NCBI GenBank assembly: GCA_023132135.1
Contig: JAGLYR010000187.1
Span: forward strand, 1 to 22,159
Length of the DNA stretch: 22,159 bases
Source of the DNA: Candidatus Eiseniibacteriota bacterium
GTDB taxonomy: Bacteria > Arandabacterota > Arandabacteria > JAGLYR01
Reading direction: 5' to 3'
Part shown: positions 2,432-22,100 of the stretch, piece after piece
How the letters are laid out: each line of letters begins with the position of its first letter
Numbering within the stretch: position 1 is the stretch's first letter
Position numbers and translations under genes: made by a program
Notes under the pieces: generated by a model
Databases searched by the model: none
Told to the model about the DNA's origin: nothing
What the model saw: the letters and a program-made list of their open reading frames with translations, nothing else

Positions 2432-4429
2432 ATGAACCGACGACAGGGCACCGGACAGGCTGAGCAGGGTCGTCACGCGACGATCCGCAGGTGGACCAGA
2501 ATCCTCCTCCGGGCAGGAGCCGCTGCGGGCTACCGCTCACCGTCGGATCTCGGTCTCAGTGTCATCGGGAGTCTTGCGGCCGCCCATCTCGGGATTCGCG
2601 GGCACACTCTCGCCTGCGTGAACGGCCTGAGAGATCTTGTCCCCGCATCCCGTGCGCTTGAACCGGACCTCGCATGCCATATCGGAGAAGCCTGCCGTGA
2701 GGGGCCGGTCTCACCCCTTGATTCCTGTGTGAGGAGAATCTGGGCGGAGTCGCATCATCCGGACCTGCTTCCATTTCGGGGAGATGCGCTCGGAATCGCA
2801 TACGAAGAAATCCTTTCCATTGAAGACTCCGCCTCGGGGGAGACGTCGCGGAAGTTGGGGGGAGTCTTCTACACGCCTCCGAAGATTGTGGACTACATAC
2901 TGGCCCGCACCTTGGGTCGATCGCGTGGCGCAGCGCGTACCGGGAAGATCACAATCCTCGATCCCGCCTGCGGATCGGGGGTTTTCCTGGTCGAGGCGTA
3001 CCATCGGCTCAAGGACAGCCGGCGAGGCGATCTGAACGCCTCTCTGTTTGGGGTGGACGTGGATGCGCGTGCGGCGAGTTTGGCCAGGACCCGCCTGGGT
3101 CTCACGGCACTGGCGAGAGCGGGGAGTGATGCCGGTGGGAATCCGGGCGTGGTCCTTCGGCAGCAGATCGTCGTTGGATCGGCACTGGCCGAATCTGTGG
3201 ACGGCCGGGAGATTCCATCTGCAATCGACACAGCCTTCGGCGAAATCCGTGATCGGGGGGGATTCGATCTGGTGATAGGGAATCCTCCCTACGTGAAGAA
3301 CAGGGATCTGGACGGCCGGAGGAAGGAACTCTGGCGCCGGGCATACTACTGTGCCCGGGGGCAGTACGATCTCATGGTGCTTTTTCTGGAGAAGGGCATT
3401 GAGGTCCTGAAGCCCGGCGGGCGGCTCGGATTCCTCGTCTCCAACAAGTTCATGACCTCATCCTACGGGAAGGAATTGCGCCGCCGAATCCTCGAGACAT
3501 GCCGGATCGAGGAAATTGTGGATCTCTCCCGAGCCCGGGTGTTCCGGGGCGCGGCCATTTATCCCGCGATTCTGATTCTGAAAAAGTGCCGGCCCGGCGC
3601 CCGGGCCGGTGGCAACGTGATCCTCAGACACGCGGTGACGGACCTTCGCGAAGAACGGGAATCGGTATCCATTCCCCAATCCGAACTCAGCCGGGGGCCG
3701 GAGAGAACCTTCACGACTGCTCTGACCGGCTCCGGTCTGCGCCTGATAGGGAAGATCGAGAAAATGTCCACTCCGTTGGGGGAGCTCGCCACGATCGCGT
3801 GCGGACTTGCGGATCCGGGGATGGGGCGATCTGTGGTTTCCAGGCAACAAGCCGTTCGGGATGGTGAGAATCGCCGGATGTTTCCCTTCATCCGCGTGGA
3901 GAACATAGCGCCCTACCAGATCCGGTGGACGCATCGCTGGATTTCCCTTGATCCGGGGCGGTACCTGCCCGCGCGTCTGACGGACTTCGGAAGCAAGAAG
4001 ATCGTCATCCCCGGGATTCGGCCCACCCTCCAGGCCGCCTACGACACTCGCGGGTACGCGCTGGGGCGCGTCTACTACATAGCGAGGCACGGGATGGATC
4101 ATCTCCTGCTTCTCGGGCTGCTGAACTCCAGCGTTCTGAATTGGTACTACCGGACCGTCTTCGGCGCGGTCCGGATGGCGGGCGGCTTTCTCCGCTTCAA
4201 TGGTCCCTACCTGAGGGCTCTCCCGATCCCTGTGCATGACTGCGGAGATCCCGCGGTCAAGGGCATTGGCTCCCTTGTAAGACGGAGGCTCCAGTCAGGT
4301 CGATCCAGGCGCGAATCTCAGACGGCCCAGGCTCGCCGCGGAGCCATCGAGGCCGACATCGACAGTCTGGTCGGAGATCTCTTCGGCCTGTCGAGGTCTG
4401 AACGGGAGACTGTCCACCATTGCGCTTGA
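2432..4429 (+). CDS. Adenine-specific DNA methyltransferase (N6-adenine, TaqI/Eco57I-like)
   Basis: A gamma-class N6-adenine DNA methyltransferase of 665 residues that would transfer a methyl group from S-adenosylmethionine to adenine in a specific DNA sequence. It has the YTPP element (147-150), the SAM-binding motif I DPACGSG (177-183) and the catalytic NPPY (284-287), followed by LVSNKFM (335-341). Residues about 445-600 resemble the TaqI-type target-recognition region, ending in a typical LLLGLLNSS...NWYYR helix and a PYLRALPIP strand. The N-terminal roughly 130 residues show no PD-(D/E)XK nuclease motif that I can see, unlike type IIG enzymes. No restriction or BREX partner lies nearby, so it looks like an orphan. 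The ribosome-binding site before the ATG at 2432 is weak, so the start is uncertain. Its stop codon lies inside a likely -35 box. Confidence 0.85.
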   Translation: MNRRQGTGQAEQGRHATIRRWTRILLRAGAAAGYRSPSDLGLSVIGSLAAAHLGIRGHTLACVNGLRDLVPASRALEPDLACHIGEACREGPVSPLDSCVRRIWAESHHPDLLPFRGDALGIAYEEILSIEDSASGETSRKLGGVFYTPPKIVDYILARTLGRSRGAARTGKITILDPACGSGVFLVEAYHRLKDSRRGDLNASLFGVDVDARAASLARTRLGLTALARAGSDAGGNPGVVLRQQIVVGSALAESVDGREIPSAIDTAFGEIRDRGGFDLVIGNPPYVKNRDLDGRRKELWRRAYYCARGQYDLMVLFLEKGIEVLKPGGRLGFLVSNKFMTSSYGKELRRRILETCRIEEIVDLSRARVFRGAAIYPAILILKKCRPGARAGGNVILRHAVTDLREERESVSIPQSELSRGPERTFTTALTGSGLRLIGKIEKMSTPLGELATIACGLADPGMGRSVVSRQQAVRDGENRRMFPFIRVENIAPYQIRWTHRWISLDPGRYLPARLTDFGSKKIVIPGIRPTLQAAYDTRGYALGRVYYIARHGMDHLLLLGLLNSSVLNWYYRTVFGAVRMAGGFLRFNGPYLRALPIPVHDCGDPAVKGIGSLVRRRLQSGRSRRESQTAQARRGAIEADIDSLVGDLFGLSRSERETVHHCA

Positions 4430-5942: not shown

Positions 5943-6404
5943 CTACTTGTCGCTCCAGCCTTTGCTGCCGATGTCGTCCAGGAGCCGGTCGATCTGCTCC
6001 CGGAACCTGGCAGCGTGGGAGGGCTCGAAGAGGGCCTGACGGATCCGCCCCGAGGGATCCTTCTTCACATAGCGGATGGACTTGATGACGTCGATGGGGG
6101 CGAGAATATCTCTGGAGACCCGAACCTCCAGGGGATCCCCGCTCACTTGCGTATCGGGGTTGTTGTAGGGGTTCATTCCCAGCGTCCAGCCGTGGGCGAT
6201 CATCCCGCACAGGGCGACGCGCAGATGGTTCCAGTCATCGTCCTTCTCAAGATCGATCCGCCTCTTCAGACGGTCCAGGAGAGCATCCACCACATCGCCC
6301 ATCTGCTCGAGCAGATGGCTGTCGATGTGGAGCTTGGCCATGGTCTGGAACATCTGGGAGAGGACTTCGCGTGTCTCGGTCATCGGGGGCTTCCTCGTTG
6401 TCAT
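5943..6404 (-). CDS. Hypothetical protein, 153 residues
   Basis: I do not recognise this family. It is the only convincing - strand gene in the window. The ATG at 6404 gives MTTRKPPMTETREV; AAAGGG lies about nine bases upstream. A second ATG at 6383 (MTETREVL), preceded by AGGA, is also possible. The reading frame continues upstream to 6596, but that stretch looks non-protein-like and overlaps the divergent gene. The N-terminal half (about residues 8-50) is predicted helical and contains LSQMFQTMAKL and DVVDALLDRLKRRIDLEKDDDW. The middle has CGMIAHGWTLGMNPYNNPDT, and the C-terminus is again charged and helical. There is no signal peptide or membrane segment, so a soluble cytoplasmic protein is expected. 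It converges on the FmdB-type gene and diverges from the FlgD-Ig gene. Confidence 0.7.
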   Translation of the reverse strand: MTTRKPPMTETREVLSQMFQTMAKLHIDSHLLEQMGDVVDALLDRLKRRIDLEKDDDWNHLRVALCGMIAHGWTLGMNPYNNPDTQVSGDPLEVRVSRDILAPIDVIKSIRYVKKDPSGRIRQALFEPSHAARFREQIDRLLDDIGSKGWSDK

Positions 6405-6479
6405 GGATGTTTTCCCTTTGGGTCGGCACGGTTTCGACCGAACTTCAGGAGAAAATGTCGTGCGGCCGCGACGAAGTGT

Positions 6480-6509
6480 TTGACACTCACAGAACAGGTT
6501 TGCTAGCCT
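6480..6509 (+). promoter_or_regulatory. Probable promoter for the FlgD-Ig/PorV genes
   Basis: TTGACA at 6480-6485 is followed after 18 bases by TAGCCT at 6504-6509. The -10 match to TATAAT is poor (three of six), but spacing and position equal those of the two other TTGACA sites. Transcription would start near 6516, about 32 bases upstream of the GTG at 6548. I could not identify a promoter for the divergent - strand gene in the same 143-base gap. Confidence 0.45.
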
Positions 6510-6547
6510 GACGTGCTGGAGCGTGTCGGGACGGATGGAGCAACGGG

Positions 6548-8170
6548 GTGCTTGTGGAACGGATGGATGCGATGCCGAGAGTACACGGGGTGGCATGGAC
6601 CTGTGTGATGATCTTGGGACTGTTTGCGGCTGTGCCTGCTGTGACTCAGGGCCAGGTGATTACGAGTCTCGGGGCCATTCCCAATCCCTTTTCCCCAAAC
6701 AACGATGGGATGCTGGACCAGACCACGGTTTCACTCCAGACCAGCGTAGCGGTGGATTCGGTGCGCCTGGTTGTCGAGAATGCCGTGTCGGCGCAGATCT
6801 GGACCCTGACATCGCCGGCTCTGACGGCGGGCGGTTTCAGCTGGGTGTGGGGGGGGACAACTTCCACCGGGGTCGCTTTCTCCGACGGGATTCACCGGTT
6901 GGCTGCCTACGCTTTTGACGCGGGCGCGGTGTGCGACAGCGCCGTCCGCTTTGTCTCGACGGATGTTGCATCGCCCGGGATCGTGGGCTTCCAGCAAGTT
7001 CGCAGTTCCTTCGCTCCGGATGCCGAACTCTGGAATCTCACGGAACTGAGGTTTGGAATAGTCACCAGTGGTCCGGCCGCCGACACCACGCTGGTGCGCA
7101 TACTCGATCCCGGAGGCTCTCCCCTGGTGTCACTGGGTGGGTTCCGGGGCGAGGTCGCGGAGACGACGTTTTTCTGGAATGGGCGGGATGCCGACAGCCT
7201 GCTCCTGGATGAGGGGTCGTATCTGTTCGAGGTGAGAGCGAACGATGAGGCGGGGAACAGCGACGCCGAGATTGGGCCGGTGTACCTGGACCTGGGCTCT
7301 CCTGTGACGGTTGTGAGTGCGGACACGGTGTTCAGCACGGCGTTTCCGGAGACTCTCAGCGGATGGACAGCGGATGTCTCCGGTGTAGGGGAGATATCCA
7401 TCCGGGCAGGTGGTGAGGGGGAGTGGGAGGATCTGGAAATCGCAGGTGGCGACTCCGTCGCCTGGCTGTGCGTGTTTGGAGACACTCTGGATCCCGACGG
7501 TTGGTATCAGGTTCAGGTTCGCGCCCGGGATGTGTTCGGTCACGAGGCGGATCCCGTGGTGGTGGTCCTTGGTAAGGCGGGCATGGTGCCCGCTCACGTC
7601 CAGTCGGCTGTCGCGGGTCCCGACACCGTCTTCGCTGACGGGGACGAAATCGAGATTCTCTCGCAGTGGGATCGGGCGGGCTACGAGATCGGTGCGGATT
7701 TCAGCGAGATCGATTCCCAGTATGTCCCGGGTGGAGAGAGCGTAATCGATAACGGAGATGGCACCTACACGATCTCCTACTTCGTGAGTGTTACTAACAG
7801 CCGGGACAATGCGGAAGGTCTTGCCGTCAGGATCCGGGCCACGAATGTCTACAGAACGGATTCCACCCTTGTGCGGGTCGAGCTCAGGAACGAGGTGGCC
7901 CCACCACCACCGCCTGAGAAGTTTGCTCTGGACCGGAACCTGTTCAACCCCGAAGATGGAGATGGGGTGACCATCCGGTTTCCCACCGCCGGGAGCGGGG
8001 AGCGGGTGGAAATCTACACGCTGGTGGGGGAGCGGGTCTGGTTGGAACATGTCAGCGGTTTGACCTCTGTGATCTGGCATGGCCGGAACTCGGACGGGGA
8101 AACCGTGGCCTCCGGGGTATACCTGGTGCGCCTCGGAGCGGATGTCCGCAAGGTTGCAGTCGTCAAGTAG
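6548..8170 (+). CDS. Secreted protein with FlgD-type Ig-like domains
   Basis: A 540-residue exported protein, probably surface-exposed or extracellular. A signal peptide covers about residues 9-36 (VHGVAWTCVMILGLFAAVP). An FlgD-like Ig module follows at about 40-125 (IPNPFSPNNDG, later FSDGIHRLAAYAFD). A second similar module lies at about 160-250 (FFWNGRDADS, DEGSYLFEVRAND). Ig-like or filamin-like strands follow at 255-450 (DNGDGTYTISYFV). A PPPPP linker at 452-456 leads to a C-terminal FlgD_ig domain (457-540) with NLFNPEDGDGVTIRFP, WHGRNSDGE and SGVYLVRLG. Such C-terminal domains are typical of exported proteins in FCB-group and neighbouring candidate phyla and may act as a sorting or anchoring tail. 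The GTG at 6548 was chosen because GGAG sits seven bases upstream; ATG codons at 6563 and 6572 are alternatives. It lies directly upstream of the PorV-like barrel. Confidence 0.8.
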   Translation: MLVERMDAMPRVHGVAWTCVMILGLFAAVPAVTQGQVITSLGAIPNPFSPNNDGMLDQTTVSLQTSVAVDSVRLVVENAVSAQIWTLTSPALTAGGFSWVWGGTTSTGVAFSDGIHRLAAYAFDAGAVCDSAVRFVSTDVASPGIVGFQQVRSSFAPDAELWNLTELRFGIVTSGPAADTTLVRILDPGGSPLVSLGGFRGEVAETTFFWNGRDADSLLLDEGSYLFEVRANDEAGNSDAEIGPVYLDLGSPVTVVSADTVFSTAFPETLSGWTADVSGVGEISIRAGGEGEWEDLEIAGGDSVAWLCVFGDTLDPDGWYQVQVRARDVFGHEADPVVVVLGKAGMVPAHVQSAVAGPDTVFADGDEIEILSQWDRAGYEIGADFSEIDSQYVPGGESVIDNGDGTYTISYFVSVTNSRDNAEGLAVRIRATNVYRTDSTLVRVELRNEVAPPPPPEKFALDRNLFNPEDGDGVTIRFPTAGSGERVEIYTLVGERVWLEHVSGLTSVIWHGRNSDGETVASGVYLVRLGADVRKVAVVK

Positions 8171-8225: not shown

Positions 8226-9815
8226 GTGATGTCATGCCAGCGCGCAGTTGTCGTTGGATTGGGTGCCGCACTGTTTCTCGCCGGCCCCGCGAGTGCGAAA
8301 GGCGCAACGGTGGGGACCACCGGGGCATCCTTCCTCAAGCTCAGCGTGGGTGCCCGGGCCGAAGCCATGGGAGATGTGGGTGTGGTGGGCCTCGATGGAG
8401 TTGAGAGCCTGTACTGGAATCCCGCAGGTCTGGCAGTGGGGGGTGGGCAGACCAAGATTCTGGTGTCCCACCAGCAGCTGTGGCAGGGCGTGAGCGCCAC
8501 CGCCGTTGCCGTCGGGCTCCGCAGCCGTGGCTTTGGCTCCCTGGCCCTGGGAATCGAGCAGCTGGGGGTCGGTGCATGGAACAATCTGGACACAGGCGCG
8601 GGGATCGACGCCAGCGACCTGGCCATTCTGCTTGGCTTCGGGCGGTCTCTGACGTCACGGATGGCTGTGGGTGTGACGGGCCGGACTCTGCACTCGACGA
8701 TCGGAGATCATTCCGCAAGTGGTTTTTCCCTCGATTGCGGCCTTCGCTACTGCATGTCGGATCATCTGGTTCTGGCAGGCGCGGTGAGAAACATGGGCCC
8801 AGGGATTTCCTTCGGGGGCGAGAGCGAGGATCCCTTGCCCATCTCGGGCAGCCTCGGCGGGGCGCTGGAGTGTAAGAGGTTTTCCCTGCTGGGTGAGGTC
8901 CGGAAGGAGAGGGGAACCGATGCCTACGCGGGGCTTGGCCTGGAGTTCCGCGTTCATCCGATTCTGGCTCTGAGAATGGGATCGAGGATGGGTGCCTCCG
9001 AGCAGCGGGCTACGTCGGACATGACCTGGGGAACCGGGATTGGCCTTCGCAGGGGATTGGGACTTGACTATAGCTACCGGGATTGCGACCTGGGGAGCAC
9101 CCACCAGTTTTCCGGAACGTACCTCTTCGGGGGGTGGGGTGGTGGAGAGAATGCGCGCTCCGCACCCGGCGAGGGTACTGCCGTGGCCTCGCATCTGGCA
9201 GTTGTGAAAGGTCTCCTGGCAAGCGCGGTGGACAGTCTTGTGCTTCTGATGCCGACACCCTCAGGCAGGGAAGTGCTGGTGAGAAGGGCCTATGAGCCGG
9301 CAGAAGAGGTCTCGGGACGGGGAAATGACGCGTCCGACGAGTCGGATGGCGAACTCCTGGAAGCCGTTCTGGTCGAGCAGCTGACCCGGAGTGGATTGGC
9401 CGTTCACCTGCCCTCCGGAGCTGGAGCGGTTGAAGATTCGCTTGCCGACGAGGCAGTCTCTTCCGCGATACCGGTGCTCGAATACCGGATTCTCGAGCTC
9501 AAGGTCAGCTATCCCTCAGGAGGCCGCCGCCACTACGTTGGCCGCAAGGAGGTGGAGAGGCTGGTCCTCGTTCACCTTCACCTGAGGCTTATGGAGGGTT
9601 CGGGGGCTGTGGTTCGCTGGGCGGGGGCCGCAGAGCGTTCATACCGGGATGTTGTGCCCTTCAGTTTGCTCCCGTCGCTGAGGAGTGAGGGATTCGGTTT
9701 CACCGACGCGGAGACCGAGGACCGCAAGTGGGACAGGATTCTGGAACCGGTTATCGCCACCGCCATCGTTGGTGGGTTGGTGTACCTCTTCTATTCGAAC
9801 AAGGGTTCGGACTAA
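8226..9815 (+). CDS. PorV/PorQ-like outer-membrane barrel with a C-terminal extra domain and terminal helix
   Basis: The 529-residue product begins with a signal peptide (about 1-25, ending ASAKG). It continues with a PorV/PorQ (UPF0164-like) barrel at about 29-305: GASFLKLSVGARAEAMGD and ESLYWNPAGLA are the family signature. PorV-type proteins are outer-membrane barrels, known in Bacteroidota as part of the type IX secretion apparatus. The barrel ends near SGTYLFGGW. From about 315 a soluble alpha/beta-looking domain follows (VVKGLLASAVDSLVLLMPTP, LLEAVLVEQLTRSGLAVHLP, IPVLEYRILELKVSYP, VERLVLVHLHLRL). The protein then ends in a hydrophobic helix, ILEPVIATAIVGGLVYLFY (505-523). I do not recognise that C-terminal domain. 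GTG 8226 (eight bases after AAGGAG) or ATG 8229 may be the start. Confidence 0.8.
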   Translation: MMSCQRAVVVGLGAALFLAGPASAKGATVGTTGASFLKLSVGARAEAMGDVGVVGLDGVESLYWNPAGLAVGGGQTKILVSHQQLWQGVSATAVAVGLRSRGFGSLALGIEQLGVGAWNNLDTGAGIDASDLAILLGFGRSLTSRMAVGVTGRTLHSTIGDHSASGFSLDCGLRYCMSDHLVLAGAVRNMGPGISFGGESEDPLPISGSLGGALECKRFSLLGEVRKERGTDAYAGLGLEFRVHPILALRMGSRMGASEQRATSDMTWGTGIGLRRGLGLDYSYRDCDLGSTHQFSGTYLFGGWGGGENARSAPGEGTAVASHLAVVKGLLASAVDSLVLLMPTPSGREVLVRRAYEPAEEVSGRGNDASDESDGELLEAVLVEQLTRSGLAVHLPSGAGAVEDSLADEAVSSAIPVLEYRILELKVSYPSGGRRHYVGRKEVERLVLVHLHLRLMEGSGAVVRWAGAAERSYRDVVPFSLLPSLRSEGFGFTDAETEDRKWDRILEPVIATAIVGGLVYLFYSNKGSD

Positions 9816-9837: not shown

Positions 9838-9880
9838 GGCTAGAGAGTAGATCCGGAAAGAGGAAGGGTTGTGCCGACCC

Positions 9881-10672
9881 ATGCGTTCTGGAAAAGCAGG
9901 AGTTCTTCTTCGGGTTCTCCCCTGGTTGATCTTGGGGATGTTCAGTGTGTGCGGCTGGAGTTGCGGTGGATCGTCTCCCCAGGTTCGCCTGGATCCCCGG
10001 GACCAGCTGGTTCTGAGTAAGCATGATTTCGAGCGCAAGAAATACATGAAGGTGATTCCTGATTTCCAGGTCCTGACCTTCAACTACCCTGGGACAGCCG
10101 AGGGAATGGAAGCGCAGTTCCTTCTGGCTGAGAGCTACCGCCTGAGCAAGCAGTTCGATCTGGCGCGCGAGGCGTACCAGGATCTGATCAGGGACTATCC
10201 CCAGTCTCCTCGGCGGGAAGAAGCGCAGTTCAAAATCGGGGTTGCTTACCTGGAGGAATCCCTTCCTGCCGAATACGACCAGGAACTGACGTGGAAAGCG
10301 CTGGAGGAGTTCGACGTTTTCCTGGCGGAGTTTCCAGACAGTCCGATCCTGGAGCAGGCCCGGCAGGCGATGAATGAATGCCGGGAAAAAATGGCAGAGA
10401 AGGACTACAAGAACGGGAATCTCTACCTCAAGATGGGGTACACGGAGGCAGCGCGACGGACGTTCGAGCGCGTGATTGAGGAGTATCCGACCACACGATC
10501 GGCGCCGCCCGCGTTTCTGGGGATGGCCCGGGCGTACCTCAAGGAGAAGAAACGAGAAGAGGCGGTCCCGTTTCTGGATCGCCTGATCAAGGAGTATCCG
10601 GGAACCCCGGAAGCCCGGGCTGCGCAAGAGCGGCTGGGAGAGATCGAAGGGGTTTCCAGGGAACAGGGCTAG
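9881..10672 (+). CDS. bamD: Outer membrane assembly lipoprotein BamD-like (TPR)
   Basis: A BamD/ComL-type lipoprotein, expected at the inner face of the outer membrane as part of the BAM complex that folds barrels such as the PorV-like and DUF3078 proteins encoded nearby. From the ATG at 9881 it is 263 residues. The hydrophobic signal LLRVLPWLILGMFSVCGWSC ends at C28, the likely lipidated cysteine, although GWSC is a non-standard lipobox. TPR repeats cover about 45-250: FLLAESYRLSKQFDLAREAY, DLIRDYPQSP, FKIGVAYLEES, FDVFLAEFPDSP, FERVIEEYPTT, FLDRLIKEYPGTP. An in-frame TTG at 9869 is an alternative start, closer to the AGGAAGG ribosome-binding sequence. Generic TPR lipoproteins can look alike, but the spacing of FP/YP repeat ends fits BamD well. 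Confidence 0.85.
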   Translation: MRSGKAGVLLRVLPWLILGMFSVCGWSCGGSSPQVRLDPRDQLVLSKHDFERKKYMKVIPDFQVLTFNYPGTAEGMEAQFLLAESYRLSKQFDLAREAYQDLIRDYPQSPRREEAQFKIGVAYLEESLPAEYDQELTWKALEEFDVFLAEFPDSPILEQARQAMNECREKMAEKDYKNGNLYLKMGYTEAARRTFERVIEEYPTTRSAPPAFLGMARAYLKEKKREEAVPFLDRLIKEYPGTPEARAAQERLGEIEGVSREQG

Positions 10673-10742: not shown

Positions 10743-11333
10743 ATGGTGCGAGATCGGATAGGGATTCTCGGAGGAACGTTTGATCCGATCCACATGGGGC
10801 ACCTGATTGCAGCCGAGGGGGTCAAGACAGAGATCCACCTGGACCGGGTGATTTTTCTTCCGGCGGCACGCTCGCCGCACAAGGACGCGGCGGGCATCTC
10901 AGAGGCAGAGCGCCGTCTGGACATGGTGCGAATGGCAGTGGAAGACAACCCTGCCTTCGAGGTCTCGGATCTGGAGATCAGAAGAGGCGGCACCTCGTAT
11001 ACGATTGAGACCATTCGCGAGATGAAAACCCGGCTCGGAGAGAGCGTGGATCTGTTCTTCCTGATGGGCGAAGACAGTCTGCTGGAGATTACCACGTGGA
11101 AGGACTACGAGTTGTTGCTGGAGGAATGCACCGTGGTGGTTTTCCGCAGGCCCGGGGTAGATCTCGGGCGGATGGATGATGAGATTCTGAGGCGGATCCG
11201 GATGGTGCCGACGTGTGAGATTGATGTTGCCTCCAGAGACATCCGGGAACGGGTTCGAGAAGGCTATTCCATCCGGTATCTGGTTCCCCCGGCGGTCGAA
11301 GCCTATATCCATCTGGAAAACCTCTACTCGTAG
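10743..11333 (+). CDS. nadD: Nicotinate-nucleotide adenylyltransferase
   Basis: NadD joins nicotinate mononucleotide and ATP to form deamido-NAD in NAD biosynthesis in the cytoplasm. The 196 residues start with IGILGGTFDPIHMGH, the nucleotidyltransferase signature with its T/HxGH element. VIFLPAARSPHK (about 37-48) is the family phosphate/substrate segment, and LFFLMGEDSLLEITTWKDY matches the NadD-specific GxDxLxxxxxW region. The ISSTxIR-type ATP motif appears in altered form as VASRDIRERV near the C-terminus, followed by YLVPPAVEAYI. The length is normal. The ATG at 10743 follows AGGTGG at modest spacing. In many bacteria nadD neighbours obg, rplU and rpmA; here the radical SAM gene and rng stand between. 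Confidence 0.93.
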   Translation: MVRDRIGILGGTFDPIHMGHLIAAEGVKTEIHLDRVIFLPAARSPHKDAAGISEAERRLDMVRMAVEDNPAFEVSDLEIRRGGTSYTIETIREMKTRLGESVDLFFLMGEDSLLEITTWKDYELLLEECTVVVFRRPGVDLGRMDDEILRRIRMVPTCEIDVASRDIRERVREGYSIRYLVPPAVEAYIHLENLYS

Positions 11334-17195: not shown

Positions 17196-18002
17196 GTGAA
17201 AGGTGAGAAAACAGTGACATCCCGCGGCGCGTTTCCGGAGGTCGACGGGCAACTCCCGCCGGGCATCCAGACTACGTGCGGAGTGCTGGGTGGGATTCCC
17301 GCCCGGTACGCTTCTTCCCGCCTGGATGGCAAACCGCTGGTTCTGCTGGGCCCGAAGTCCCTGATTCAGCACGTCTACGAGCGGTGTCTCCAGACGGAAG
17401 TCCTGGACCAGGTCGTGGTGGCGACTGATGACCGGCGTATTGCCGAGGCCGTGAGGGCTTTCGGTGGGAAGACCGTGCGGACCTCCTCCAATCACCGCAC
17501 GGGCACAGATCGCCTGGCCGAGGTTGCTTCCCGAATCGAGTGCGACGTTGTCGTCAACACCCAGTGTGATTCCCCCCTCTTTCCCCCACATGCAATTGAC
17601 CTTGCGGTTCGCGCGTTGCTGGAGAATCCGGAAGTCAGAATGTCCACGGTGGCGGCGCCTTGCGCGGACGAGTCCGAGATCAGATCGCCCAACAGCGTCA
17701 AGGTGGTGACGGATTGCAGTGGCGATGCCCTCTATTTCTCCCGTTCGCGAATCCCGCCGAGGACAGAAGCGGCCTCGGATGTTCTGCTTCACCTGGGTAT
17801 CTACGTGTACCGCCGTGAATTCCTTCTGGAACTAGCCCGGCGGGAGCAGGGGCCGCTGGAGAAGCGTGAGCACCTGGAGCAGCTTCGGGCCCTCGAGTAT
17901 GGTGACCGGATCCGCGTCGTGCTCATCGGGGAAATGCCTCCCGATCTGCATGACATGGATGATGTGAAATCTATCCGCCAACTGCTGGGGGGGGAGAGAT
18001 GA
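17196..18002 (+). CDS. kdsB: 3-deoxy-manno-octulosonate cytidylyltransferase (CMP-KDO synthetase)
   Basis: KdsB activates KDO with CTP to CMP-KDO for lipid A-core assembly. Family features are [15 protein letters not shown] (34-48), [65 protein letters not shown] and [19 protein letters not shown]. Two departures stand out. The usual QGDEP metal/nucleotide segment reads QCDSP (residues 123-127), and the C-terminal segment that normally reads GxDTPEDL reads DLHDMDDV (250-257), apparently replacing a conserved aspartate with histidine. The GTG start gives about 28 extra N-terminal residues compared with typical family members; a GTG at 17283 would give the usual length but lacks a good ribosome-binding site. 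The TGA overlaps the pyrG ATG (ATGA). Confidence 0.85.
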
Positions 18003-19648
18003 CGACCAAGTACATCTTCGTTACCGGAGGTGTCGTCTCGTCGTTGGGGAAGGGGATAGCGGCGGCGTCGCTCGGTCAGCTTCTCAAGAACCGGGGACTG
18101 GGCATCACGATCCTGAAACTCGACCCGTACCTCAATGTGGATCCCGGGACCATGAGCCCTTTCCAGCACGGGGAAGTTTTCGTGACGGACGACGGGGCGG
18201 AAACCGATCTGGACCTGGGGCACTATGAACGGTTTGTCGGTATTGACCTGGGTCAGGATAACAATGCTACGGCGGGTCAGATCTATGATGCGGTGATTAC
18301 CCGCGAGCGCCGGGGTGGGTATCTGGGAGGCACCGTCCAGGTGATTCCCCACGTGACTGACGAGATCAAGAGTCGCATCTACCGCCTGGGGGATCGGGAC
18401 GAGATCGACGTTTGCATTGCCGAGATCGGCGGCACCGTCGGCGATATCGAATCCCTCCCCTTCCTGGAGGCAATTCGTCAGGTTCGTCTGGATCACGGAG
18501 TTGGAAGCACCCTGTATATCCATGTGACCCTGGTTCCTTTCATCAAGGCGGCGGGCGAGATCAAGACCAAGCCGACACAGCACAGTGTTCGTGCGCTGCG
18601 CGAGATCGGAATCCAGCCCGATATCCTCCTGTGTCGCACCGAGTGCCCGCTGGGTCGCTCAATCCGGGAGAAGATAGCCCTGTTTTGCAACGTGGCCGTT
18701 GGGAACGTCATCGAAGCCGGTGACGTTCGATGCATATATGAAGTGCCTCTGCGCTTTCGCGAGGAGGGACTGGATCAGCGGGTGGTGGACCATCTGGGCA
18801 TCGATGCCCCGGAGACGGATATCGCAGAGTGGGAGGCCATGGTCCAGCGGATCCACGCCGGTGATCGGCTCGTCCGGATCGGGATCTGCGGCAAGTACGT
18901 GAACCTTCAGGACGCGTACAAGAGTATCAACGAAGCCCTGACCCACGCGGGAATCGGGAACGGTTGCAGGGTTGAGGCGCAGTGGATTGACTCGGAGTTT
19001 CTCAACTCCGACAACATCTCCGCACACCTGGCGGATTTGGATGCCATCCTGGTTCCGGGAGGATTCGGAGACCGGGGGATCGATGGGAAGCTGCATGCGG
19101 TTCGCTATGCGCGGGAGAACGACGTTCCGTACCTGGGTATCTGTCTGGGGATGCAGTGCGCGGTCATCGAGTTCGCTCGCAACGTGCTGGGTCTCCAGGA
19201 TGCCAACAGCAGGGAATTCGACGCGGAGTCACCGCACCGGGTGATCGATCTCATGTCCTCTCAGGAGGGTATCCTGGACATGGGCGGGACCATGCGCTTG
19301 GGCTCCTTCGAATGTGTTCTCCAGCCGGGAACGCGGTCGGCCGAGGCTTACGCTGCAACGCCTGTCCAGGAGCGGCATCGCCACCGCTATGAGTTCAACT
19401 CCGCCTACGAACAGCAGTTCGAGACCGCGGGCATGGTGGTGAGCGGCGCTTCACCCGACGGGCGTCTGGCGGAGATCGTGGAGATCCCTTTGCACCCCTG
19501 GTTCGTTGGATGCCAGTTCCACCCGGAGTTCAAGTCGAGGCCCATGAAGGCTCATCCCCTGTTCCTGGCCTTTGTGAAGGCAGCGTTGGCCTACAGCGCG
19601 TCACGTGAGACGGCGGCGCCGGGAACAGAGACCAGTCGGCTGAGATAG
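17999..19648 (+). CDS. pyrG: CTP synthase
   Basis: Converts UTP to CTP using ATP and glutamine-derived ammonia. The 549 residues have both domains. The synthetase domain (about 1-270) has [16 protein letters not shown] with its P-loop, [40 protein letters not shown] and [11 protein letters not shown]. The class I glutamine amidotransferase domain (about 290-540) has catalytic C382 in GICLGMQ and H508/E510 in [10 protein letters not shown]. The length is normal and no key residue is missing. The ATG overlaps the kdsB stop. Placement between kdsB and kdsA fits local supply of CTP for CMP-KDO; pyrG linked to kds genes also occurs in other Gram-negatives. Confidence 0.97.
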
Positions 19649-19657
19649 GGGGGGCGC

Positions 19658-20545
19658 ATGGGATCATCTTCGGTACCCTGTTTGAACCCTTGCCTGCAGG
19701 TCGGCGGGGTGAGGATCGGTGGAGGCGCTCCCCTGGTTCTCATCGCCGGGCCCTGCGTTCTCGAAACGGAAGACGAAGCTCTCAAGATCGCCGAGAAAGT
19801 GCGGCGCCTTGCGCAGCGCTTGGGGATGGGCTACATCTTCAAGGCGTCCTACACCAAGGACAATCGTTCGTCCGTGGATTTTTTCCCGGGACCCGGGCAG
19901 GAGGCAGGCCTTCGGATTCTGGAGAAGGTCCGCCGTGAGGTGGGGGTACCTGTTCTCTCCGATGTCCACTGTTGCACAGAGGTGTCCGCGGCTGCCGAGG
20001 TCCTGGATATCCTGCAGATTCCCGCGTACCTCTCGCAGCAGACCCGGCTGGCGCTTGCTGTGGGCCGGACGGGCAAGCCGGTCAATGTGAAGAAGGGCCA
20101 GTTCGTTGCACCGGAGGATATGCGGGCTGCCGTTGGGAAGATCGAGAGCACCGGGAACCGGAACATCCTTCTCACCGAGAGGGGGAGTTCCTTTGGCTAC
20201 CGGACGCTGGTGGTGGATTTCCGGGCCCTCAGTATCATGCGGGCTCTGGGGTACCCGGTGGCGTTCGATGTTACTCATTCCGTGAGGATCTACGGTCGCC
20301 CCAGCAAGGACCCATTGGGGGGAGAGCCGGCGTTCATCCCGTTTCTGGCGCGGGCGGGTGTGGGAGCCGGCTGCGAGGCCGTGTTCCTGGAAACCCATCC
20401 CGAACCCGCGAGGGCGGCATGCGACGCCTCGAGCATGTGGCCTCTGGAACGGCTCGAGTGGCTCCTGGAGCAGCTCGTACGGATTGACGCGGTAGCCCGG
20501 GAGGCAATGTCGCGCGAGGTTGCGGAGACGGAGGGGGCGACGTGA
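19658..20545 (+). CDS. kdsA: 3-deoxy-8-phosphooctulonate synthase (KDO-8-phosphate synthase)
   Basis: KdsA condenses phosphoenolpyruvate with arabinose 5-phosphate to KDO 8-phosphate. It is a TIM barrel of 295 residues with family motifs IAGPCVLE, VPVLSDVH, ILQIPAYL, NVKKGQF, TERGSSFGY, DVTHSV and FLETHPEP. C33 (of GPC), H207, E245 and D256 match the ligands of the metal-dependent class. Several usually conserved substrate-side segments differ: KANRSS is KDNRSS (67-72), CRQTDL is SQQTRL (126-131), and the SGGxR loop is LGGEP with a longer lead (220-224). The reading frame and fold motifs are otherwise intact. The ATG at 19658 is nine bases after the pyrG stop with a G-rich ribosome-binding site. 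Its stop overlaps the kdsC GTG. Confidence 0.88.
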   Translation: MGSSSVPCLNPCLQVGGVRIGGGAPLVLIAGPCVLETEDEALKIAEKVRRLAQRLGMGYIFKASYTKDNRSSVDFFPGPGQEAGLRILEKVRREVGVPVLSDVHCCTEVSAAAEVLDILQIPAYLSQQTRLALAVGRTGKPVNVKKGQFVAPEDMRAAVGKIESTGNRNILLTERGSSFGYRTLVVDFRALSIMRALGYPVAFDVTHSVRIYGRPSKDPLGGEPAFIPFLARAGVGAGCEAVFLETHPEPARAACDASSMWPLERLEWLLEQLVRIDAVAREAMSREVAETEGAT

Positions 20546-21057
20546 GCCGAGAGGTGCGGGTGCTGGTGATGGATGTAGACGGCGTGCTCACGGGAGGAGA
20601 AATCATCCACGGCACGGGAGGGATGGAACTCAAGCAGTTCCATGTCCAGGACGGAATGGGGGTTACCCTGGCGCGGCGCGCAGGAATTCTCCCTGTGGTG
20701 ATCACAGTGCGGAAAAGCGAGGCGGTAGCCAAGAGATCAGAGGATCTGAAGATCGCCGAGGTTCATCAGGGTATCACGCGAAAATGGGAGTGCCTGAAAG
20801 AGATTCTGAAGCGCCACGGCTTCGAGCCGGAGGAGGTCGCGTACGTTGGAGATGACCTGGTGGACCTGCCTGTGATGCGCCGGGTGGGGCTTCCGATTGC
20901 CGTGGCCAACGCCACCGAGGATGTGAAGCGGAACGCTGAGTGGATCACGGCTCGCGAGGGTGGACGGGGGGCAGTGCGGGAAGCGGTGGAGATGATTCTC
21001 AAGAGGGACGGGAAGTGGGACAGGGTGCTGGAGGATCTGTTCGAGGAGCTGGAGTAA
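20542..21057 (+). CDS. kdsC: 3-deoxy-manno-octulosonate-8-phosphatase (HAD family)
   Basis: KdsC removes phosphate from KDO 8-phosphate to give KDO. The 171-residue type C0 HAD protein (no cap domain) carries catalytic D11/D13 in MDVDGVLT, T55 in motif II, K81 (QGITRK) and D104/D105 in YVGDDLVDLPVM. The C-terminal EGGRGAVREAVEMIL matches the family tail that closes over the neighbouring subunit's active site. Differences from typical KdsC: VLTDG is VLTGG, the TGRKSE motif is TVRKSE, and the NVRDGxG segment is HVQDGMG. GTG 20542 overlaps the kdsA stop by four bases. Confidence 0.88.
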   Translation: MSREVRVLVMDVDGVLTGGEIIHGTGGMELKQFHVQDGMGVTLARRAGILPVVITVRKSEAVAKRSEDLKIAEVHQGITRKWECLKEILKRHGFEPEEVAYVGDDLVDLPVMRRVGLPIAVANATEDVKRNAEWITAREGGRGAVREAVEMILKRDGKWDRVLEDLFEELE

Positions 21058-21071
21058 ACGGAGCCGAGACA

Positions 21072-22100
21072 ATGGGAATGGATCGTCGCGCGAGTGACAC
21101 AACCGGCTTGTGTGAGAAGAAGGGTGTCCTCGATGAGGGAAAGCGTGTCATTCGCACAGAAGCCGAAGCCCTGCTGGCACTGGAGAAGCGGCTGGGCCCC
21201 GAGTTCGAGCGCGCGGTGGAGATTCTGCTTCGACATCTGAGCGGTGGTGGGCGGGTTGTCGTAACAGGCGTCGGGAAATCGGGAATCATCGGCCAGAAGA
21301 TGGCGGCGACCTTCAACAGTACCGGGATGCCCGCCTTCTTTCTGCACCCGACCGAAGGCCTCCACGGGGACTTGGGGATGGTGACCTCCAGCGACGCCGT
21401 GATTGCCATCTCCAACAGCGGATACAGTGAGGAAATCCGGAGTCTTCTGCCGTGGCTGGATAGACTGGGCGTGGACGTGATTGCTGTCACCGGGAACATG
21501 GCTTCTCCCCTAGCGGAAACGGCCTGCCTGGTGCTGGACGCGTCGGTGGAGCAGGAGGCCTGCCCGTTGGGGTTGGCCCCGACGGCCTCCAGCACGGTGG
21601 CGCTGGCCATCGGGGATGCCTTGGCGGTGGCGGTTTTCCAGGCCCGGGGTCTGGACGCCAGGGATTTTGCCTTTCGACACCCCGGGGGAGTTCTGGGAAA
21701 ACGACTGAGCCTCAAAGTCCGTGAGATCATGCACTCAGGCGATGCGGTTCCCGGAGTACTGCTGGGAAGCACCGTGCGCGAAGCGATTCTGGAGATCATC
21801 AACAAGCGTCTGGGCGTGACCATGGTAGTGTATGAAGATGGCACGCTCGCCGGGCTCATTGCCGACGGGGACCTGAAGAGGATGCTGGTGAGCGCCGAGG
21901 ACCTGATGGATCATCCGGTGGAAGATGTGATGACCCGCGAACCCCGCAACATTGGTCCCGACGAGCTGGTCAGCAGGGCTCTGCAGAAGATGGAAGAGGA
22001 TCCTGAACGGCTTATAACCTCCCTTGTCGTCACAGACGACGGCAATCATCCAATCGGTATCGTTCACATTCATGATTGCCTCCGCGCCGGTGTCTCCTAG
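21072..22100 (+). CDS. kdsD: Arabinose-5-phosphate isomerase (KdsD/KpsF family)
   Basis: Interconverts ribulose 5-phosphate and arabinose 5-phosphate, the first step toward KDO. The 342 residues contain a SIS sugar-isomerase domain (about 45-185) with VVTGVGKSGIIGQKMAATFNSTG, HPTEGLHGDLG, ISNSGYSEE and the family stretch EACPLGLAPTASST. HPGGVLGKRL (203-212) follows, then two CBS domains (about 215-272 and 280-342) that usually sense nucleotides or nucleotide sugars. The ATG at 21072 has GGAG eight bases upstream; the frame is open further upstream inside kdsC but has no start signal there. It is the last gene of the operon in the window. Confidence 0.94.
   Translation: MGMDRRASDTTGLCEKKGVLDEGKRVIRTEAEALLALEKRLGPEFERAVEILLRHLSGGGRVVVTGVGKSGIIGQKMAATFNSTGMPAFFLHPTEGLHGDLGMVTSSDAVIAISNSGYSEEIRSLLPWLDRLGVDVIAVTGNMASPLAETACLVLDASVEQEACPLGLAPTASSTVALAIGDALAVAVFQARGLDARDFAFRHPGGVLGKRLSLKVREIMHSGDAVPGVLLGSTVREAILEIINKRLGVTMVVYEDGTLAGLIADGDLKRMLVSAEDLMDHPVEDVMTREPRNIGPDELVSRALQKMEEDPERLITSLVVTDDGNHPIGIVHIHDCLRAGVS

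Follow-up and report, generated by a model that had tools for sequence, protein, structure and literature searches.

We found that a gene in a 22,159-nucleotide stretch of DNA from a Candidatus Eiseniibacteriota bacterium (here called the window) encodes a PorV-family barrel fused to a second domain and a terminal hydrophobic helix, and that this fusion is genuine and conserved. The second domain, to which we gave the working name DOM (the last ∼215 residues of the fusion protein), represents a widespread family whose members are usually free proteins of ∼215 amino acids (aa) encoded just 5′ of bamD. That DOM is usually a separate protein beside BamD suggests that it is a conserved, undescribed part of outer-membrane biogenesis in bacteria with type IX secretion. 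Our best explanation, a tentative one, is that DOM is an outer-membrane-anchored periplasmic accessory factor working with BamD and BAM, which the fused barrel serves to anchor and dock.

Sequence and structural model together establish the architecture of the fusion protein (Table 1). The reading frame is open across 529 codons with no internal stops. Residues 31 to 296 match the PorV family model NF033709 (133.8 bits; cutoff, 90), as do other fusions (L098, L106 to L108, L078, L147, and L148), which likewise exceed the cutoff. An AlphaFold2 model of the whole protein, based on 23 aligned sequences (mean pLDDT, 72.7; 91 residues below 50), has 14 barrel strands at residues 76 to 301, a separate domain at 323 to 485, and a helix at 502 to 526. 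The initial annotation had described a complete PorV-type barrel (residues 29 to 305), an extra C-terminal domain without sequence recognition, and a terminal hydrophobic helix (505 to 523), and had proposed structure prediction of residues 1 to 529 as a check: all three parts were modeled and the observation is confirmed, with boundaries that were correct to within a few residues. By sequence, DOM has no credible match to Pfam, NCBIfam, or PDB chains. The same annotation considered the arrangement odd for a barrel, since outer-membrane barrels normally end at the last strand; this generalization does not hold throughout, as OmpA is a barrel with a periplasmic C-terminal domain, and such barrels are not unprecedented.

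Table 1. Coordinates of the fusion gene, its parts, neighboring genes in the window, and unfused barrel genes of other families
Feature	Coordinates	Strand	Remarks
PorV-family barrel-DOM-C-terminal helix fusion gene	8226..9815	+	529 aa; start GTG 8226 or ATG 8229
N-terminal signal peptide, residues ∼1-25 (...LFLAGPASAKG)	8226..8300	+	Read from sequence; model helix 3-17
PorV/PorQ-family barrel, residues 29-301, 14 predicted strands	8310..9128	+	NF033709; Z to PorV
Variable linker, residues 302-321	9129..9188	+	Alignment of fusions
DOM, residues 315-529, unnamed family	9168..9812	+	Predicted fold similar to LpoB/PelC/CsgG/LptE
C-terminal hydrophobic helix, residues 502-526 (WDRILEPVIATAIVGGLVYLFYSNK)	9729..9803	+	Model and conservation
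FlgD-Ig protein with CHU_C/type IX-like C-terminal domain	6548..8170	+	PF13860, 9e-16; adjoins fusion gene on 5′ side, 55-nt gap
BamD, TPR outer-membrane assembly factor	9869..10672	+	TIGR03302, cutoff 81.4; gap 53 nt
nadD, next conserved gene of locus in relatives	10743..11333	+	Named from sequence
Small conserved protein, divergent from locus	5943..6596	-	Same place in class relatives, f102, f69
Separate PorV-like barrel gene	L151:3980-5005 and L155:4012-5073	-	36 and 56 bits, below family cutoff

A scan of GTDB genomes established that the fusion recurs: a PorV::DOM fusion is encoded at 17 of 24 loci, mostly from Candidatus Eisenbacteria. These proteins are mostly about 500 to 515 aa, with L102 and L115 truncated on the N-terminal side; barrel and DOM are joined by a linker of 20 to 28 aa in 16 aligned fusions. 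Family f69 has the same fusion and gene order in three genomes, with the small divergent protein present as well in L096 and L148; altogether, fusion to a PorV-type barrel occurs in three families of genomes. The initial annotation had raised the possibility that a sequencing error joined two genes, and the occurrence of free DOM with its own signal peptide within the window's class might seem to favor such an error, or one of assembly. We regard this as excluded for practical purposes, because the same fusion turned up independently in some 20 assemblies from other families; moreover, GC3 is similar across the join (0.73 and 0.69 in the two halves) and no signal peptide remains between the barrel half and the DOM half. 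Two further families have an unfused counterpart of the fusion, in the form of a separate gene for a PorV-like barrel immediately 5′ of free DOM and bamD.

Phylogenies bear on how the fusion arose. The DOM tree groups the window with family f72 (96/90); neither a single clade of all fusions (p-AU, 0.10) nor a grouping of the window with its class relatives (p-AU, 0.35) is rejected, so that one and several fusion events are not separable from DOM alone. In the BamD tree, the window falls among its class relatives (SH-aLRT, 83); its position is not resolved by that of NadD. In the barrel tree, the fused barrels form one group, separate from the other PorV proteins of the window's genome (SH-aLRT, 90), within which the window and f69 group at 97. 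PorV-family barrels are greatly expanded in the window's genome (G000; 12 matches) and in the 40 tested genomes with DOM (up to 33).

Whether DOM occurs free or fused had been posed as a check in the initial annotation: it is mostly a free protein. Five genomes of the window's class encode free DOM of ∼215 aa with its own signal peptide, followed in four of the five by a BamD-like TPR protein and nadD (the fifth locus is at a contig end); the small divergent protein is present in most of them. Across a broad sample, DOM was detected at an E value of 0.01 in 52 of 386 genomes and, by our count, at 1e-10 or better in 45. An automatic test found a BamD-like gene 3′ of DOM in 38 of these 45 loci; at least three of the other seven (L040, L081, and L089) break off at the end of a contig. 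The names given to neighboring genes in relatives rest on similarity to genes of the window and of one relative. Six free DOMs carry a lipobox without Asp at +2, and some free DOMs are thus probable lipoproteins, judging from this motif. The C-terminal helix is kept in five of these six; the sixth, a lipobox DOM relative encoded at L153:2959-3717 (+), has no helix, and the DOM helix can therefore be lost. In family f102 (L060, L062, and L065; genomes G372, G106, and G244), a TonB_C domain (PF03544; E values, 4e-13 to 7e-9) interrupts DOM midway, after the first helices and before the beta sheet.

The gene order FlgD-Ig, PorV::DOM, BamD, NadD is found at 17 of the 24 scan loci; FlgD-Ig is present upstream at every one of these whose contig extends that far, and BamD-NadD follow the fusion in nearly all. 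In the window, the BamD gene beside the fusion scores 133 to 135 bits against TIGR03302 and is the only one over the cutoff in its genome (the next scores 54). The FlgD-Ig neighbor pointed out in the initial annotation is borne out by its Pfam match, and its C-terminal end is type IX-like (PF13585, 27.6 bits at a cutoff of 27; TIGR04183, 18 bits, under the cutoff of 23). The small divergent protein belongs to no Pfam family (best E value, 0.11), and a promoter/terminator scan and Rfam gave nothing useful. Elsewhere in the window, we recognized by eye genes resembling kdsB, pyrG, kdsA, kdsC, and kdsD (17196-22100, +), a set for Kdo, the LPS core sugar, and an Eco57I-type DNA methylase/restriction protein look-alike with an NPPYVKN motif (2432-4429, +).

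What DOM might do is suggested by its predicted fold. Modeled alone (pLDDT, 81.8; pTM, 0.73), it matches CsgG (Foldseek E value, 6e-5), LpoB (Z, 8.5 over 112 residues), PelC (6.9), GNA1162 (6.4), and LptE (6.4); the matches cover about residues 15 to 180 of the DOM piece, and the best Z exceeds the 7 to 8 given as background for the aligner by only a small margin. All of these top matches are of one kind, namely, periplasmic proteins of the outer membrane. Thus, the label "unrecognised domain" given to DOM earlier stands by sequence and falls by structure, in that the modeled fold resembles the LpoB/PelC/CsgG/LptE group, with Z scores modestly above background. The Escherichia coli gene order lptE-holA-nadD prompted the idea that DOM is the genome's LptE; this was ruled out, since another gene (C116:8829-9218) matches PF04390 with 44.8 bits.

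The best fold matches, LpoB and PelC, also raise the question of whether DOM, tied to the barrel, activates a peptidoglycan or polysaccharide machine or forms a collar on it; PelC rings form under the PelB barrel. Such a role appears very unlikely: no synthase or polysaccharide genes were recognized beside DOM in the loci that we read, where its neighbors are bamD, nadD, and genes resembling lnt and rimO (the last two by eye), and 21 DOM members gave no match to the Pfam families of the LpoB/PelC/CsgG/LptE group at E values up to 10 with HMMER filters on.

The terminal helix is the most conserved segment of DOM (mean, 2.91 bits per column versus 1.49 for residues 348 to 485), with a consensus end, LEPxxVxGxVGGLVYLFYSNK, that falls a few residues short of the C terminus. 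The initial annotation had allowed for a known globular family with the helix buried in its core; instead, the helix (residues 187 to 212 of the DOM piece) lies outside the matched fold. Its ∼20 uniformly hydrophobic residues, acidic on the N-terminal side and closely followed by K/R in most members, have the charges expected for an Nout-Cin orientation by the positive-inside rule. It is conceivable, then, that the protein is a trans-envelope tether with its barrel in the outer membrane, its helix in the inner membrane, and DOM in between, a link that the charges and moderate hydrophobicity allow and that the TonB_C domain inserted in f102 would fit. An insertion estimate made with Hessa-type coefficients gave −1.2 to −1.9 kcal/mol for the free forms of the class, in favor of a tether, and −0.6 to +1.0 kcal/mol for the fused forms (window helix, +0.5), with a median of 0.35 for the DOM family; the values of the fused forms are near the threshold, making the fused helix borderline for membrane insertion. 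We consider a tether unlikely on further grounds: five of the six free DOMs with a lipobox, and thus probably lipidated, also have the helix; a compact domain flanked by linkers of 20 and 16 residues would span an estimated ∼165 Å at most, below the usual periplasm; and the helix sequence is conserved beyond the needs of a plain anchor. Its fuller form, a single polypeptide sitting in both membranes whose intervening LpoB-like domain connects BAM or type IX carriers with the inner membrane, we judge to be still more doubtful.

Several lines of evidence connect the fusion with type IX secretion. SprA is encoded in the window's genome (PF14349, 72.1 bits in a 1,982-aa frame) and in 44 of the 45 genomes with a DOM E value of at most 1e-10, versus 61 of 341 others, a difference confounded by ancestry; PorV-family proteins are present in 40 of 40 tested genomes with DOM. 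The suggestion in the initial annotation of export machinery other than that of classical type IX secretion is not supported, given the presence of SprA in this and nearly all other DOM genomes, and it overlooked bamD, the strongest link of DOM. Among PDB structures, the closest to the modeled barrel is T9SS PorV (Z, 29.7; 6h3i_F, 278 residues aligned, rmsd 3.5), followed by FadL/TodX (Z, about 28) and then BamG (Z, 24.4).

Next after a BAM accessory role, we consider the possibility that the barrel is a type IX carrier of the neighboring FlgD-Ig cargo, with DOM serving as a periplasmic handle that holds the carrier or pulls it off the translocon. This would account for the PorV family score, the structural match to PorV, the presence of SprA, and the FlgD-Ig gene with its CHU_C/type IX-like end, which lies directly upstream in the window and in f69 and f72 loci where the contig reaches. 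There are precedents for both of its elements: carrier genes are linked to cargo genes for type B substrates of Flavobacterium johnsoniae (PMC12618676), and PorV was proposed to be forced off SprA by energy input (PMC10994853). Nevertheless, we find a carrier role possible rather than probable. The window protein does not reach the PorV and PorQ equivalog scores (NF033710, 44.7 of 250 bits; NF033711, 65.4 of 220 bits). In most genomes free DOM adjoins bamD, not cargo or PorV genes, and outside the fused lineages the family has no tie to cargo genes. The fused barrels are the most compact among those compared (256 to 268 residues versus mostly 263 to 325 in others), whereas PorV binds cargo through extracellular loops, and the cargo signal in the window is weak, with CHU_C just at its cutoff and TIGR04183 below it.

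We favor a role with BAM on three grounds: bamD is the most constant neighbor of DOM, the N-terminal side of DOM is probably anchored in the outer membrane by two routes (barrel fusion, or a lipobox in the six free DOMs), and the predicted fold is of an outer-membrane accessory type. From these, we infer the cellular location of the protein, its contact with BamD or BAM, and the role of its helix as follows. The N-terminal half would sit in the outer membrane as a 14-strand barrel of the PorV type whose two ends face the periplasm, and the linker would connect it to a periplasmic DOM with an LpoB/PelC/CsgG/LptE-like fold and the conserved hydrophobic helix. Elsewhere, DOM is normally secreted as a protein of its own, encoded just 5′ of bamD, and is a probable lipoprotein in some lineages. 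DOM may assist BamD and BAM where large type IX outer-membrane proteins must be built; the fused barrel would anchor and dock it, like the FadL-type BamG on the Bacteroidota BAM, and at the BAM site, the membrane or a partner within it would receive the helix. Contact of the fusion product with BamD or BAM would accord with gene adjacency to the sole BamD of the genome. BamG, a FadL-family barrel, is part of the Bacteroidota BAM, and its C-terminal tail touches BamD (PMC12611786). Since the BAM with BamG also tracks SprA (PMC12611786), the association of DOM with SprA fits both a BAM role and a type IX role.

Some observations argue against a BAM role. The barrel model is nearer to PorV than to BamG, and the window protein has no match to PF03349 (Toluene_X) at E values up to 10; a PF03349 protein above the cutoff is encoded elsewhere in the same genome. 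A shared gene order may reflect common descent with no function in common, the SprA association is confounded by ancestry, and the FlgD-Ig neighbor is better explained if the barrel is a type IX carrier.

Beyond the well-studied groups, extra BAM subunits, including a FadL-type barrel, were shown only recently, in Bacteroidota (PMC12611786, PMC12578637), and our literature searches on Eisenbacteria with type IX secretion, and on PorV with LpoB/CsgG, found nothing on a PorV::DOM fusion. Lying beside bamD, occurring almost only in SprA genomes, and barrel-fused in three families, DOM stands out as a specific candidate for a hitherto undescribed factor of outer-membrane biogenesis in phyla that are poorly known, and PorV::DOM offers a way to test whether BAM and type IX carriers are connected.

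Compared with known systems, the window protein shares with the PorV/PorQ family, including T9SS PorV (6h3i_F and 8gl6_F), a 14-strand FadL-type barrel, a family score above the cutoff, and the best structural match; it differs in not being the equivalog, in its more compact barrel, in its position in a bamD locus, and in a 215-residue extension that holds a second domain and the terminal helix. With BamG, it shares the 14-strand FadL-type barrel and a fold match; however, BamG is a member of the FadL/Toluene_X group, to which the window barrel has no match, and is linked to BamA and BamD, contacts that are putative for the window protein. DOM has the predicted common alpha/beta fold of LpoB, PelC, CsgG, GNA1162, and LptE, which are periplasmic and work at the outer membrane, as the DOM relatives that are probable lipoproteins may also do; unlike that group, DOM has no sequence family match, adjoins bamD, and carries a conserved C-terminal hydrophobic helix outside the fold.
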